Assembly (NCBI GenBank): GCA_027490155.1
Contig: JAIXYP010000039.1
Coordinates: 1 to 64,000, forward strand
Direction: 5' to 3'
DNA length: 64,000 bases
Origin: Cytophagaceae bacterium
GTDB taxonomy: Bacteria; Bacteroidota; Bacteroidia; Cytophagales; Flexibacteraceae
The notes under the pieces were generated by a model. That model ran no database searches. It was given only the letters and a program-made list of their open reading frames with translations, and was not told the DNA's origin. Below are positions 2,640 to 27,657 of this stretch, piece after piece (within the stretch, counting starts at the first letter, position 1; each line of letters starts with the position of its first letter). The position numbers and the translations under genes were made by a program.

Positions 2640-4892
2640 ATGTTGCTCCGCTTTAGTTTTCTGTTGATTTTTTCGTGGTGCCTAGCTGGCTCGGCCTTTG
2701 CCCAGCCAACGGACAATCCCTACACCGCCCGCTACCCACAGGCCATTGGCCACTGGACGGATAGCCTAAACTGGAGCAGGGTATGGCTCGCAACAGACCA
2801 TAACATCTTCCCGAACGACAACCTGTATGACGATGCAGCGGCAGCCATCGCCATGGACTCATTGTCTCGCAACGGTGGTGGTGTCTTGTATTTCGAGCCC
2901 GGGCAGTATGATTTCCAAGTCAATTTCAGGATTCCGAATGGGGTGATTGTGCGTGGAGCAACCCCCGTTGGCATTACGGATGCTACGGTCCAAGGTTTTA
3001 GCCCACCCACCCGGTTTGAGTTCCCGCAATACATCTTTGACCCAATGGCCAATGGCGGTCGGGGGACGGCCAATAGCACTGCCTTCAAACGCATCACGAC
3101 CACAACCGGACGTGTCAGTAATGCAGGCATCGTGAACGTTAATGTCAACAGGGCCGGCATCAGCTTTAGGTCTGACCTAGGTTTCCCTACGGGTTGGGCA
3201 GGCACCCAGCCGATCGCCTATACCCGCAACATCATCGTGATGGGCACCCGCACCAACAACGTAGCCGATGCCAGCAGCTACGTGCCAGACACGACTTTCC
3301 AAGAGGCTTGGCAGCGGCATAGCTACTTGTTCACGAACAATATAGGGGTCTTTGTCCAGCGCAATGCTGCTGTTGTCAATAACCGCTGCAACGACATCGC
3401 TGGCACAGGCGGACAGGACGACAGCTTTGAGATGGATGGCTATGTCGTCAAGAAATGGCCCTTCACTGGCTATGATACCCTAAGGGCTGGCAAGGCGATC
3501 TTTAACTATACCGACCACTATGGCATCTCGGTCAACCGTAAAGCTGCTGTCACTGCCGCTACACCTGAGCAAGAGCCTGCCCTTTTTGCCGAGGGTATCG
3601 AGATCAGGGATAACTGGATCTATCACACCATGCGGATTGGCCTCACGTTCAGCGGCCTTAATGCTGAGGTGACAGGCAATGTGATCCGCGACAAAATGCA
3701 GAAAGTCACTTGGATACACCCGCTTGGCCTCGAGGTTCCCAAAAATGCCAATACGTTCGAAAATCGTGGTATTGACGTCTCAGGCTGGGGTGCAAGGGTT
3801 GATAATAATGACTGGGTTGTCTATCGGCACCGCATCAATAGTGGGCCTTTCTACAGTGTGGATGGTGAGGGACTATTGTTCCAGAGCTGCTGTGGTGGCA
3901 CAACGGTCAATGGTTATCAGGTGACGAATAACACGTCTAACGGCACCTTCATCTCCATCTTCTACAGCAATGACATCCATAACGTGGTGGTGTCTGGCAA
4001 TAACCTAGGCGGTCCATTGCAAGGTGGTGTCCAGAGTGGGTCCATTATCTGGATCAATGCGGATGTGAGTAGCACACAGTTTGGCTACCTCAACAATGTG
4101 CTGGTTGAAGGCAACTACAACATCAACAACAATGGTGGCATGGGCTGCATCATCACAGGTAGCAAGGGAGGTCATAATGCTATCGTCCGGAACAATACGG
4201 TTGTTAACACGCCTACCACAGCCCCTGGGCCAGATCTCACGATCAGCTGTCATGTTCAAGAGTCTGGCAACCAAGGATTCTCGAATGTGCGGATCCAGAA
4301 TAACGGCGGCAACCCTTGTGGTCCACCAGCTAGTCTACCCCTAGTCGCAATCACGAACCCTAGCACTGACACTACCTTCTGCGATAGTGTCCTGACCCAG
4401 ATCCCTGTCACGATCCAGCTGACGGATGCCGACCTAACCACTGCCACTGTCGATCTTTACCGTGGCAACTCAGTCATCGCCCCAGGGCTGGTACCCGCTC
4501 CGGATGGTAGCATCTCTTTGTTGGTCGATCTGCCCCCTGGCTCTGGCACCACCTCATTTACGGCTTATGTACGTCAGGCTGGGGTGACCTCCATCTCACG
4601 CTCCTTGAGGTTGTTGCGCAACTGCCCTGTCAACATCGTCACAGATCTCAGCAACACTGCAGGACCAGTCGCCAATTGGTCTATGATGCCGAACCCAAGT
4701 AGCACCGAAGTGCGATTCATGGGCCTATCTGCCAATCAGACTGCAAAGGCCTTAGTTTTCAACACGATGGGGCAACTGGTCTTGAGCCAATCCATTAGCC
4801 CAGATCAGCCACTTAGTGTTGCTGGCCTCGGCGCAGGACTCTATATCGTCCGAGTAGGTGGCCAGCAACAACGCATGGTTGTGCTGCACTAG
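2640..4892 (+). CDS. secreted right-handed beta-helix protein with T9SS sorting domain
   Basis: A 750-residue secreted protein. Residues 1-22 are a signal peptide ending AFAQ. Residues 60-560 have the asparagine- and glycine-rich short-strand pattern of right-handed parallel beta-helix proteins (pectate-lyase-like fold); the start, with a glycine-rich VLYFEPGQY stretch, is typical. Residues 565-670 look like an Ig-like domain, and the last 75 residues are a type A T9SS sorting domain (MMPNPSSTEVR ... GAGLYIVRV). A polysaccharide substrate is plausible for the fold, but I see no catalytic motif that names one. It is convergent with the ammonia-lyase gene, and the two stop codons overlap by 4 bp. 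Confidence 0.82.
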   Translation: MLLRFSFLLIFSWCLAGSAFAQPTDNPYTARYPQAIGHWTDSLNWSRVWLATDHNIFPNDNLYDDAAAAIAMDSLSRNGGGVLYFEPGQYDFQVNFRIPNGVIVRGATPVGITDATVQGFSPPTRFEFPQYIFDPMANGGRGTANSTAFKRITTTTGRVSNAGIVNVNVNRAGISFRSDLGFPTGWAGTQPIAYTRNIIVMGTRTNNVADASSYVPDTTFQEAWQRHSYLFTNNIGVFVQRNAAVVNNRCNDIAGTGGQDDSFEMDGYVVKKWPFTGYDTLRAGKAIFNYTDHYGISVNRKAAVTAATPEQEPALFAEGIEIRDNWIYHTMRIGLTFSGLNAEVTGNVIRDKMQKVTWIHPLGLEVPKNANTFENRGIDVSGWGARVDNNDWVVYRHRINSGPFYSVDGEGLLFQSCCGGTTVNGYQVTNNTSNGTFISIFYSNDIHNVVVSGNNLGGPLQGGVQSGSIIWINADVSSTQFGYLNNVLVEGNYNINNNGGMGCIITGSKGGHNAIVRNNTVVNTPTTAPGPDLTISCHVQESGNQGFSNVRIQNNGGNPCGPPASLPLVAITNPSTDTTFCDSVLTQIPVTIQLTDADLTTATVDLYRGNSVIAPGLVPAPDGSISLLVDLPPGSGTTSFTAYVRQAGVTSISRSLRLLRNCPVNIVTDLSNTAGPVANWSMMPNPSSTEVRFMGLSANQTAKALVFNTMGQLVLSQSISPDQPLSVAGLGAGLYIVRVGGQQQRMVVLH

Positions 4893-8062: not shown

Positions 8063-8070
8063 CAAATATA
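8063..8070 (-). promoter_or_regulatory. -7 promoter element of the SatD-DUF3307 operon
   Basis: TATATTTG on the minus strand matches TAnnTTTG exactly, 29 bp upstream of the SatD start codon. The first palindrome of the adjacent array begins at 8069, overlapping this box by 2 bp and filling the expected -7/-33 spacer. That is where an operator would sit. No TTTG is found at the -33 position. Confidence 0.5.
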
Positions 8071-8203
8071 CAGGGTAAAAACCCTGTATTTGCCGTTGAC
8101 AGGGTAAAAACCCTGTATTTAGCGTTGACAGGGTAAAAACCCTGTATTTGGCATTGGCAGGGTAAAAACCCTGTATTTGCCGTTGACAGGGTAAAAACCC
8201 TGT
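8069..8203. repeat. five-copy 29-bp tandem array of palindromes
   Basis: Five units begin at 8071, 8100, 8129, 8158 and 8187, an exact 29-bp period. Each contains the palindrome ACAGGGT-AAAA-ACCCTGT (7-bp arms, 4-bp centre), followed by TTTGCCGTTG with one to three changes between copies. The palindromes are almost invariant, while the linkers vary (TTTGCCGTTG, TTTAGCGTTG, TTTGGCATTG). The array lies between the stop of the GNAT gene and the promoter of SatD. It can be read as a multi-site operator or as a row of RNA hairpins in the GNAT transcript. Confidence 0.93.
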
Positions 8204-8224
8204 CTTTTGATCTCCTTATTGGGA

Positions 8225-21401: not shown

Positions 21402-22025
21402 CTACTCCAGCGTGCGGCCTTTCATGACCCGTTGTTTGCCTTCTGATAGTTTCTTGTCGTTTTTCTTGATCATGAGCTGGGCATCAGCACCAGAAGGGGA
21501 GATGAAGAACTCTTTGCCTTCGTATATGATTTTACCACGTTTGTTTTTCCACTCGTCAGCAAAGATGACATAGATAGAGCTTGGCGAGTTGGCATTGTTG
21601 ACACCAAAGGTCAAGAACTTATCGTCCGTATCGTCAAATGCGATGTCTAGGCGGGCGCTATCCTTGTAGTTGATGCAGATGCCAGGGGTAAACTTCTTGA
21701 GTTTGATGACATGCACATACTTGCCGTTCTCGAATACAACAGATCCTCTGGTGATCTGGACGGTATCTGAGGTCAACTCACGGCGTAGCTCGATGTCGGT
21801 GTCGACATAGTATTGCAGGTCCTTAGGGGTCTTGCCAGTGGCCTTGACCGTATTGCGCATCCCTTGTGAGAAATAGACCTTAGGCGTCGTGGCGCAAGAG
21901 GCCAGCAAAAACATACATGCCATGACGACCAGCGCTGAGCTAGCCATCCGGATTGATAGACCGCCGAAAGAGCTCGGTTTTGACACTAGTTGCGACACTG
22001 CGGAGGGTATTGTCTGGATCGACAT
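21402..22025 (-). CDS. lipoprotein of unknown function
   Basis: A lipoprotein with a clear lipobox FLLASC followed by ATTPKVYF. From ATG 22025 the cysteine is residue 44; from the internal ATG at 21947 it would be residue 18, a more usual distance, though that form lacks a positively charged N-terminus. The mature part (about 160 residues) is beta-rich with many Lys and Asp and no motif I recognise. It is the last gene on its strand before the shared terminator with the TonB-dependent receptor. Confidence 0.7.
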   Translation of the reverse strand: MSIQTIPSAVSQLVSKPSSFGGLSIRMASSALVVMACMFLLASCATTPKVYFSQGMRNTVKATGKTPKDLQYYVDTDIELRRELTSDTVQITRGSVVFENGKYVHVIKLKKFTPGICINYKDSARLDIAFDDTDDKFLTFGVNNANSPSSIYVIFADEWKNKRGKIIYEGKEFFISPSGADAQLMIKKNDKKLSEGKQRVMKGRTLE

Positions 22026-22320: not shown

Positions 22321-22730
22321 CAAATGTCCGATAAGAGGGAATAAGAAACAGCCTTTGGGGCACTTCTGAGCGGATTGCCCTATCCAAATGTCCGATTAGC
22401 GAGAACAAAAATCCGCATTTCCAACCCTTCTGGTGAGTCTGCCAAGCCCATTTGTAGTTTAAGCGAGAACAAGAAACCGCGTTTACCCCCCCTTTTGGAG
22501 ACTCTGCCCAGCCCATTTGTAGTTTAAGCGAGAATAAGAAAGCGGGATTGCGCCCTTGTTGGAGGGTCAGCCTTGCCCATTTGCAAGACACGTGAGAATA
22601 AAAACACGGCCTTAGGGTGTATGCTAGGCCACCTTATCAGCTCATTTGCAAGACACGTGAGAATAAAGAAGTTGCCAGAAGACTTGCAGGAGCAATCAGA
22701 AAAAGGCATTTGCAAGACAGGTGAGAATAA
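22321..22730. repeat. seven-unit array with 64-65 bp period, CRISPR-like spacing
   Basis: Units start at 22321, 22385, 22449, 22514, 22578, 22643 and 22707: steps 64, 64, 65, 64, 65, 64. Each begins with a 24-28 bp element, read on the minus strand as TTnTTCTC, an 8-10 bp variable core, then CAAATG (CATTTG in the two distal copies). Cores fall into three neighbouring groups: ACGTGTCTTG (copies 5-7), GCTTAAACTA (3-4), GCTAATCGGA or TCTTATCGGA (1-2). The 36-40 bp between elements differ, but copies 1-4 share a GGC-GGCAGA ... CCA-AAGGG pattern, so the whole unit was probably duplicated. The array begins 16 bp beyond the stop of the AlbA_2 ATPase gene. No cas gene is present. Confidence 0.9.
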
Positions 22731-22745: not shown

Positions 22746-24209
22746 CTAACCCCAATGCGGAATGTAAGCAGCTAGTTTACGTGCCGTGTTTTCAGGATCG
22801 AAATCTTTGATCAGACCTTCGGCCAGTGTGGCTTTGATGATTCGCCAACAAGTCGTTGAGTCAACATTGTCAGGCAAAAACCTGCTTCGCAACGACTGAT
22901 TCGTCAACTTCTCACCATGGACGATGTACCGCAGGCAGGCATGTAGGTAACAAGCCGAGATGCGTTCGCTCTGGGTGAACTGCCGCAGCGGTTTGTAGCC
23001 ATACAGCGTCGCTATCGTATGAGAAGTCTTGCTTTCGAATTTAGGGGCAGGCAAGTGGGCGTTCTCCACCTCGTTTACCACCTTGTCGATGCCACTGCCG
23101 CGCTCTTCGCACAGGCCAATGCGCCGCATAAAGGATGCAAGATCCTCATTGCGCGACTGCGGCGGCTCATCCAAGAAACGCATGGTGTCAATCAAGGGGC
23201 GGCCATTGTTCGTGAATTCAACCCTGTCCCGGTAGATCTCGACCATGGGGTTGGTACCACCCTGATAATAGTCCTGGTGGATCAGCATATTGGCAAACAA
23301 TTCACGGACGGCAATGGGCGGATACATACGTTCGGTGGTGCGGAGGGCCTCGCCGATCTCTTCGTATTGCGGTAGTTGGTCATTGATATACCGGACCATC
23401 TCGGCAAAGTGGGCAGCATAACCTTCTGCAAAATTGACCTCCTTAATGGTCCGAAGTTTGTTTTTGCCCTCGTACACGATGACGCGTACACTTTTGCGGC
23501 GCAGCTGGTCAAACGAATGCAGGTCGTATGCGAATAGCATGGCCCCCATATTGGTTATTGCTAGGTTTTCTACCGTACTGTTGTCAGCCAGAAGACGCTC
23601 AGAAACCAACCGTTGGACGATTGCGACCTTGCCATCTGGCCGCGGAATGTCCAAAGCTCTGAATATGGCATCAAGGTTGAGGCGTTTCTCTAGCTCCTGG
23701 TAGGTGATGCGGTCTAGGGCGATCTCCCGTTCAAACCGTGATATTCTGGCTTGGCTCCTAATGCGCTCCAGCTCCTCGATATTGAGCGGGACTAGTGACT
23801 CATGATCCCGACCGAAATACTGACCTTTCCAAAACAGTGGCATACCACGTGGGGCGGCTGGTATCTCGAACATCACAACTCGTTTGCCCTCGATGATGGG
23901 TGCATAAATCTCCTTGAACGTGATCCTGTTATTGACCTGATCCGCAATTTCTTTCTTGAGCCGTTGGAGGCTATCACCATCAGCAAAGGCATTGCTACCC
24001 ACCACGGCCCTGTCCTGGTTCCGGATGCCAAAAACCAACCAAGCATTGGGTTGGTTCTGTAGGTTGGCCTCGTTGGCTAGGGCCGAGAAGTACTCACCGA
24101 TATCGTTTTTCGAGAACGTACTCTTCGCCTCCTTGAACTCCACCACCTCTGACTCTGCACCAGAGCGCAAGGTCTCGAGGATTTCCTGAAGTTCGGCGTT
24201 AGTGTACAT
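22746..24209 (-). CDS. AlbA_2 / GHKL-type ATP-binding protein
   Basis: A 487-residue protein of the group often labelled ATP-binding or RecG-like. Residues about 15-140 are the AlbA_2 (Schlafen-like) nucleic-acid-binding domain (VVEFKEAKSTF, NAWLVFGI). Residues about 290-390 form a GHKL-type HATPase_c_4 domain with RELFANMLIHQDY, VEFTNNGRP and EERGSGIDKVV. The rest ends in a winged-helix-like region. Such genes are typical accessory genes, sometimes in defence islands, but their role is not settled. It stands alone, with a seven-unit repeat array directly downstream. Start at ATG 24209. Confidence 0.85.
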   Translation of the reverse strand: MYTNAELQEILETLRSGAESEVVEFKEAKSTFSKNDIGEYFSALANEANLQNQPNAWLVFGIRNQDRAVVGSNAFADGDSLQRLKKEIADQVNNRITFKEIYAPIIEGKRVVMFEIPAAPRGMPLFWKGQYFGRDHESLVPLNIEELERIRSQARISRFEREIALDRITYQELEKRLNLDAIFRALDIPRPDGKVAIVQRLVSERLLADNSTVENLAITNMGAMLFAYDLHSFDQLRRKSVRVIVYEGKNKLRTIKEVNFAEGYAAHFAEMVRYINDQLPQYEEIGEALRTTERMYPPIAVRELFANMLIHQDYYQGGTNPMVEIYRDRVEFTNNGRPLIDTMRFLDEPPQSRNEDLASFMRRIGLCEERGSGIDKVVNEVENAHLPAPKFESKTSHTIATLYGYKPLRQFTQSERISACYLHACLRYIVHGEKLTNQSLRSRFLPDNVDSTTCWRIIKATLAEGLIKDFDPENTARKLAAYIPHWG

Positions 24210-25060: not shown

Positions 25061-25378
25061 CAAACACCATGCTAAGGCCCCGTGCTGATACAGATTAGGT
25101 AGTCCAACGGGGTGTCGATAAAGCGGTTCACCAGCTCTAGTTTGATGCGGCCCCATTGGTAAAGGTCCGTCGGCCGAAACGATTTGAACGCCACCTTACA
25201 CTCGGGTGAGGGCTCATTATCCAAAAAAGTAAACGCGCTTACTGATTTGCCATCATTGAGCAAACCCTTGATCAACAGCTCAATACCTTGGGCATGGGCC
25301 TGTTGATCAAGGGGCTCGGAACAATACACCTACTTGCCGCACTTGGGCGTAGGTCAGGATATGGTCTGTTTTCGCAGA
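25049..25378 (-). pseudogene. truncated, frameshifted second copy of the DUF6913 gene
   Basis: About 330 bp homologous to the central part of the intact gene at 27100-27657. The core (about 70 residues, from LLIKGLLNDG to ICISTGP) differs from the intact copy at about three residues, and a stretch near 25175-25255 looks identical at the base level. Outside the core the match is weaker. The copy lacks the first 30 and last 60 codons, has a one-base frameshift near 25320 (RAP then TGA) and an in-frame TAG after STGP. It begins 5 bp after the stop codon of the T9SS protein gene. Confidence 0.88.
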
Positions 25379-27099: not shown

Positions 27100-27657
27100 C
27101 TACCCCAAATACACCGGCCTTACCCAATCACCGCTCAACATCCGTAAATAGCCCAAGATGGCGGTGGCGGCCTCTTCCGGGTTGTGCCCTTCGGTATCAA
27201 AGACCAAGTCAAAGAGGTGGGGCATACCCGTTTGGCTGTTCCCGATGCGGCAATAGGCCTTAGAGCGCAAAATCAGGTGCTCAAACTCGGTGCTTGGGCC
27301 TGTGCTGATGCAGATCAGGTAGTCTAGCGGGGTGTCGATAAAGCGGTTGACCAGCTCCAGTTTGATGCGGCCCCATTGGTCAATATCCGTCGGCCGAAAC
27401 GATTTGAACGCCACCTTACACTCGGGTGAGGGCTCATTATCCAAAAAAGTAAACGCGCTTACTGATTTGCCATCATTCAGCAATCCCTTGATCAGCAGGT
27501 CAACGGCCATGGCTTGCTCCTTCTTTGGCGCGCGGAACAATAAGCCCACCTGCCGCACCTGGGCGTAAGTTAGCAGGTGGCCTTGGCGCAGGGCCTCTTG
27601 TTTCCGCAATAAACGGTTCCGGATCTGGAGACTAAGATGTTGGAGGCTGCGGTTCAT
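27100..27657 (-). CDS. DUF6913 family protein
   Basis: A 185-residue cytoplasmic protein matching the Bacteroidota-specific DUF6913 family in length and pattern: an N-terminal helical part (SLQIRNRLLRKQEALRQ), then GLLFRAPKKEQ, a strand-rich core with TFLDNEP and DYLICISTGP, and a C-terminal FDLVFDTEG block. No catalytic motif is known to me for the family. A near-identical core of this gene is duplicated at 25049-25378, downstream of the intervening T9SS gene. Start at ATG 27657. Family call is from pattern memory. Confidence 0.7.
   Translation of the reverse strand: MNRSLQHLSLQIRNRLLRKQEALRQGHLLTYAQVRQVGLLFRAPKKEQAMAVDLLIKGLLNDGKSVSAFTFLDNEPSPECKVAFKSFRPTDIDQWGRIKLELVNRFIDTPLDYLICISTGPSTEFEHLILRSKAYCRIGNSQTGMPHLFDLVFDTEGHNPEEAATAILGYLRMLSGDWVRPVYLG

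Follow-up and report, generated by a model that had tools for sequence, protein, structure and literature searches.

The described system nearest in role to the one analyzed here is RptR (RMS-proximal transcriptional regulator) of E. coli EPEC, which is tied to type I restriction-modification (R-M) loci, represses a defense promoter, and has short direct repeats as its binding sites (PMC12255303). RptR is a small homodimer, and its sites are TAGCTA palindromes within 9-bp repeats upstream of its own gene (PMC12255303). The BrxR/CapW-type WYL regulators of defense islands are also transcription factors located beside defense genes (PMC9122601). They have a wHTH-WYL architecture, and their operators lie upstream. 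In type II R-M systems, C (controller) proteins delay expression of the restriction gene via operators near the R gene. As for domain content, TrlG of Photorhabdus has the same Pfam architecture as the protein described below, Alba_2 plus HATPase_c_4, although its membership in the same subfamily is not established (PMC7554251). In the open-access literature that we searched, we found no published account linking this protein family to repeats.

The locus lies in a stretch of 64,000 nucleotides from a Cytophagaceae bacterium, which we call the window. It pairs a gene encoding a Schlafen-like (AlbA_2) domain and an ATPase domain with an array of evenly spaced repeats. We conclude that this array is very likely bound as a DNA site by the neighboring protein, an inference made from sequence alone and without binding data.

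The window array and its gene

The array consists of seven 24-bp elements spanning positions 22321 to 22730 and is separated by 15 bp from the stop codon of the AlbA_2/ATPase gene. The features of the locus are as follows (element sequences are given on the gene strand).

22321 to 22344, minus strand: element copy 1, TTATTCCCTCTTATCGGACATTTG, the most distant from the gene and the most diverged
22385 to 22408, minus strand: element copy 2, TTGTTCTCGCTAATCGGACATTTG
22449 to 22472, minus strand: element copy 3, TTGTTCTCGCTTAAACTACAAATG
22514 to 22537, minus strand: element copy 4, TTATTCTCGCTTAAACTACAAATG
22578 to 22601, minus strand: element copy 5, TTATTCTCACGTGTCTTGCAAATG
22643 to 22666, minus strand: element copy 6, TTATTCTCACGTGTCTTGCAAATG, with the same letters as copy 5
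22707 to 22730, minus strand: element copy 7, TTATTCTCACCTGTCTTGCAAATG, the closest to the gene
22746 to 24209, minus strand: gene of the cognate protein, 487 amino acids (AlbA_2, GHKL ATPase, and C-terminal winged helix)
23787 to 24155, minus strand: SLFN_AlbA_2 domain, residues 19 to 141 (PF04326, E 1e-14; Foldseek matches SLFN11 and 2KYY)
23007 to 23258, minus strand: HATPase_c_4 domain, residues 318 to 401 (PF13749, E 3e-22)
22803 to 22973, minus strand: C-terminal winged helix, about residues 413 to 469, the region that co-varies with the array
22821 to 22859, minus strand: predicted recognition helix, residues 451 to 463; code residues 450 to 452 are D-S-T

An initial annotation had described seven evenly spaced units, and the start-to-start distances (64, 64, 65, 64, 65, and 64 bp) confirm this. 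Its block-wise variation also held: the copies fall into blocks 1-2, 3-4, and 5-7, divergence is highest at the gene-distal end, and the intervals of copies 1 to 4 are related to one another (62 to 83% identity). On the gene strand, the elements take the form TTrTTCyC...CAwwTG; the constant end CAAATG that it had proposed held only in part, being present in copies 3 to 7 and replaced by CATTTG in copies 1 and 2. The interval length of 36 to 40 bp that it had given failed, since we measured about 40 to 41 bp. While it had suggested a diversifying array, the blocks are seen but active diversification has not been shown; likewise, a defense role is not shown for this particular copy.

The pattern CATTTGN8GYGAGAAYAA has five exact matches in the 4-Mb genome, all inside the array, and copy 2 differs from it by two mismatches. 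No exact copy occurs elsewhere in the genome, and other near-matches stay at the level of a reversed-pattern control. Tandem Repeats Finder detects only the best-matching 2.2 copies. Other repeats in the window include a separate tandem repeat at 8070 to 8207 (4.8 copies of 29 bp with the palindromic core ACAGGGTAAAAACCCTGT) and a nearly identical stretch (LLIKGLLNDGKSVSAFTFLDNEPSPECKVAFKSFRPTD...) common to the open reading frames at 25072 to 25329 and 27100 to 27657, a recent local duplication. Positions 22664 to 22693, in the interval between copies 6 and 7, match 27 of 30 bases of an rnpA-like gene of the same genome (L002, 1501 to 1530; E 4e-4). This likeness is unexplained and could be due to chance or to a copied fragment.

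The even 64- to 65-bp period would also suit a CRISPR or decayed CRISPR array. This reading is all but ruled out: the repeats vary in blocks, the intervals of copies 1 to 4 are mutually related, none of the intervals matched phage or plasmid DNA, and homologous arrays co-vary with a winged helix (see below). Moreover, the genome has its own CRISPR repeat, GTTGTGAATTGGTCTCAAACCTAGTAGATTCGCAACA, at the start of an array near cas1 on contig 34 (L321, 15 to 126), which is unrelated to the window element.

The Schlafen-like and ATPase domains named in the initial annotation were confirmed with Pfam. No recombinase domain was found by Pfam, and a fold search returned the uncharacterized structure 3LMM and Schlafen N-domains. 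In the AlphaFold2 model (mean pLDDT, 93.7), residues 441 to 470 lie within the winged helix, which includes the recognition helix, and the code residues are predicted to sit at its beginning.

Phased repeats beside homologues

Relatives of the window protein with 39 to 47% identity are found in many phyla and have phased repeats at the same place. In other genomes of the same order, three of four homologues with 39 to 46% identity have 63- to 66-bp repeats directly adjoining the gene, and these repeats differ in sequence. A contig scan confirmed at least 588 relatives, of which the 80 that were kept represent Bacteroidota, Cyanobacteria, Proteobacteria, Verrucomicrobia, Bacillota, and others; further homologues were added from 395 genomes of the window organism's phylum. 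The loci were gathered by a pattern-based scan, so sampling is uneven, and all the evidence is computational.

Direct repeats (at least 19 of 24 positions) occur within 260 bp after the stop codon in 60 of 113 homologue loci. The same test gave 4 of 110 upstream, 2 of 100 at +1200, none of 113 inside the gene, and 6 of 1130 (0.5%) dinucleotide shuffles. At least one 11-bp box of the main class lies within 160 bp after the stop in 101 of 136 loci, against 2 of 129 control windows. Many of the loci lacking a main-class box bear another class, such as TTAAACGCAAA, and further minority classes include TTTAAACGCAAA and GATTATGCACA. A strict double-box pattern is present in 30 of the 395 genomes, mostly at family genes or their remnants, with a few isolated, chance-like matches; orphan sites of clear origin are mostly remnants of a family gene.

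The initial annotation had proposed recurrence beside homologues as a check, and this was met by phased repeats at the same place with different sequences. What it had named as refuting evidence, homologues consistently without arrays or the same repeat at unrelated loci as a general minisatellite, was not found. In this regard, a neutral minisatellite can be virtually dismissed. Whole 64-bp units do appear to have been duplicated stepwise, but the pattern is unique in the genome, and recurrence, position, and the helix code described below span phyla.

After one homologue (L042, 2928 to 4040), the array exceeds 1 kb and is built of 132/143-bp units in which two different element types occur. 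In the Streptococcus satellite phage Javan309 (L256), the family member lies directly before the integrase with no main-class box after its stop, and a 55-bp-spaced repeat is located upstream of its start.

Co-variation of the winged helix with its array

A typical family element comprises two direct 11-bp boxes, occasionally three, that read TTATKTGAYNG or TTAATTGAYGG. The spacing of neighboring boxes is always 11 bp: this holds for 103 pairs, and no pair falls at 8 to 10 or 12 to 15 bp. Elements are about 66+11n bp apart; the gaps between them cluster at 64 to 67, 75 to 79, 85 to 90, and 98 to 100 bp, and the periodicity that fits these gaps best is 11.3 bp (R 0.78, n=83). DNA loops in living E. 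coli have about 11 bp per turn (PMC8501960), with a range of 11.08 to 11.60 bp per turn for looped DNA (PMC1762422). Since the observed period falls within this helical repeat, it fits proteins arranged on one face of supercoiled DNA. The window array itself averages about 10.7 bp per turn, if each unit is taken as six turns. Alternatively, the 11-bp phasing may have a mechanical cause, namely, the growth or loss of arrays by whole 11-bp boxes.

Among 53 loci less than 80% identical to one another, similarity between elements tracks similarity in residues 441 to 470 once whole-protein identity is removed (partial rho 0.40); none of 1000 label permutations reached this value, and the best region outside the C-terminal domain gave 0.23. 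Reading the protein alignment and the boxes together, we derived a code from residues 450 to 452, at the start of the recognition helix. Proteins with N-S/A have the box TTATTTGA (TTATTTGAY), those with N-Y (N-Y-S/A) have TTATGTGA (TTATGTGAY), those with N-Y-P have TTATGTAA (TTATGTAAY), and those with N-K have TTAATTGA (TTAATTGAY), while N-R/Q/T goes mostly with TTGCTTGAY or TTGTTTGAY. G occurs at box position 5 in 19/19 cases with tyrosine at code position 2 and in 0/26 without it (p 4e-13); A occurs at box position 7 in 7/7 cases with proline at code position 3 and in 0/38 without it (p 2e-8). Both p values ignore shared ancestry; the same residue-base pairs are seen again in different phyla.

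In held-out loci with a testable prediction, the code gave the correct box in 39 of 42, and all control windows together contained three boxes. Because the array co-varies with the winged helix and the code predicts held-out boxes, we interpret the array as the DNA-binding site of the neighboring protein. There are no binding data, but these two results are the strongest evidence for this interpretation, and we consider it very probable. They also support the initial proposal that array and gene form one unit, in the version in which the repeats are DNA sites for the protein; here, too, the support is repeats beside homologues in many phyla and co-variation with the recognition helix.

The initial annotation had also considered an RNA version, in which a structured RNA or RNA repeat would be bound by the AlbA_2 domain. 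On the gene strand, the array does come immediately after the coding region, on its 3' side. The Schlafen fold is known to bind RNA in some cases. Nevertheless, this version is disfavored and very improbable: co-variation is found in the winged helix rather than in AlbA_2, and spacing follows the DNA helix. Folding did not exceed that of shuffled sequences on either strand (z 0.0 and 0.7), and the array had no Rfam match.

The window protein meets the family definition (SLFN_AlbA_2, HATPase_c_4, and a conserved winged helix ending in Y-x-P-x-W) according to Pfam, alignments, and AlphaFold2. The window repeats meet the family criterion of position and spacing, being within about 20 bp of the stop with a period near 66+11n bp. 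The double direct 11-bp box of the main class (TTATKTGAY and its variants), common but not universal in the family, is absent from the window element, which consists of TTATTCTCACG followed by a different 13 bp. Serine 451 predicts a TTATT half, and the element has one; its other half, CTC in place of TGA, is not predicted. The helix reads D450-S451-T452, in which D450 is unusual, and W455 replaces a nearly invariant serine. The window element (TTATTCTC plus a different second half) belongs to a minority specificity of the family.

Genomic setting, proposed role, and comparison with known systems

R-M genes are present in 22 of 46 well-flanked family loci, most commonly in the order M, S, family gene, R, that is, between hsdS and hsdR, although neighbor gene calls are rough. 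R-M-linked examples on plasmids include pAQ3 of Picosynechococcus PCC 7002, which has the order M-S-gene-array-R, Aliarcobacter, and Acidovorax. A Desulfosarcina plasmid carries the family gene with an anti-phage DUF1156 protein on one side and a phospholipase D-like anti-phage protein on the other. Within one genus, two arrangements are seen: hsdR overlaps hsdS and boxes are absent, or boxes at -121, -31, and -20 stand between the two genes, as would be expected of a control region. The genomes concerned, however, have no full-length protein to match these boxes, which weighs against the regulatory reading. In five loci (L281, L288, L290, L291, and L294), hsdR has well-placed TACTTGAC boxes with no matching protein in the locus; we found no matching full-length cognate for these TACTTGA boxes in those genomes.

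We evaluated the array as a plain promoter of the next gene and rejected this as a general role. Arrays precede convergent and co-directional genes equally often (16/33 versus 30/60), and real convergent genes are among them; therefore, not all arrays can be promoters of the next gene. These counts are rough, since some "convergent" neighbors are spurious open reading frames over hsdR. Simple autorepression is not general either, given that boxes lie upstream of the family gene itself in only 24 of 134 loci.

Because the array commonly sits after the M/S genes and ahead of hsdR in a type I R-M operon, control of the restriction gene is the likeliest role. In the model we propose, the recognition helix of the winged helix would read the array element, a step supported by the co-variation and the held-out test. 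With the elements on one face of the DNA, proteins bound to them could come together in a complex that is looped or clustered and probably ATP-gated. The protein would then most likely control transcription of the restriction gene by delay or repression, and perhaps that of its own locus. Overall, a binding-site array on which a phased complex controls the restriction gene or locus explains the results best, but we hold this by a modest margin: neither binding nor expression data are available, and looping, ATP gating, and target are inferred. No restriction or hsd gene adjoins the window gene, which stands alone. The window copy is a solo gene, and its seven-site array has a specificity of its own; the same-strand neighbor at 22025 to 21402 is no more than a candidate target.

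The main rival to transcriptional control, and a possible one, is an array-controlled effector. Here the protein would be an AlbA_2 enzyme or growth-arrest factor, not a transcription regulator, that its own array keeps parked, assembled, or inactive; its release might be signaled by, e.g., DNA damage, phage DNA, or loss of modification. Consistent with this, the array lies after the gene irrespective of which gene comes next and how that gene is oriented, about half of the family loci are solo genes, and AlbA_2 has a Schlafen fold in which E19, E24, and K26 are invariant among 79 homologues. In addition, growth is arrested upon a temperature shift by TrlG, which shares both domains (PMC7554251). 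In contrast, the M-S-gene-array-R order and the box-bearing versus overlapping hsdR starts favor gene control, and there is no evidence of enzymatic activity or toxicity in this subfamily. A bolder version, also conceivable, is that the gene with its array constitutes a self-contained DNA-scaffold switch, in which assembly on the phased array, not transcription of a neighbor, would set the activity of the Schlafen-fold ATPase. The recognition-helix code might then re-specify protein and array jointly as the unit spreads between genomes.

Less likely, the array could mark where a mobile gene unit ends, serving as a recombination or cassette boundary on which the protein or a host recombinase acts. 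Family genes occur on plasmids, in a P2-like phage, and beside the integrase of satellite phages, and some remnants retain just the last codons of the gene together with the array (L235, L236, L242, and L246). In L183, identical double boxes at 3573 and 7835, about 4.3 kb apart, flank PIN-like toxin and DUF262-like genes with no ATPase gene between them. Against this reading, the protein lacks a recombinase domain, the remnants are compatible with ordinary decay, and single-sided arrays are the rule. A clean empty site was not found at the Hymenobacter serA locus, where variation in the flank prevents a junction from being defined. None could be shown for the window locus, whose flank gene has one weak homologue in the family and none in the same genus.

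Because family genes commonly lie between modification and restriction genes, control of this kind may be widespread in type I restriction, the regulation of which is poorly known. For a large uncharacterized group annotated only as "ATP-binding protein" (at least 588 members), sequence alone provides a predicted DNA ligand, the domain that would bind it, and a residue-to-base code that can be tested. Since the specificity of array and protein changes jointly, the family also offers DNA-binding proteins that are orthogonal to one another and whose sites are predicted.

Regarding known systems, the best fold match among solved structures is 3LMM, the uncharacterized DIP2311 of Corynebacterium diphtheriae (E 3e-20), which is likewise the best match by sequence in the GHKL part; the identity is 15%. 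TrlG causes growth arrest within a trlG-trlF-trlR operon, for which no DNA array is reported (PMC7554251). C proteins are small HTH proteins with an unrelated fold and operator layout, and BrxR/CapW-type regulators differ in both architecture and operator position. RptR remains the nearest in role, but its criteria, a TAGCTA operator and a small homodimeric protein, are not met here: the window family combines AlbA_2, a GHKL ATPase, and a winged helix, and has 11-bp boxes in an array mostly 3' of the gene.
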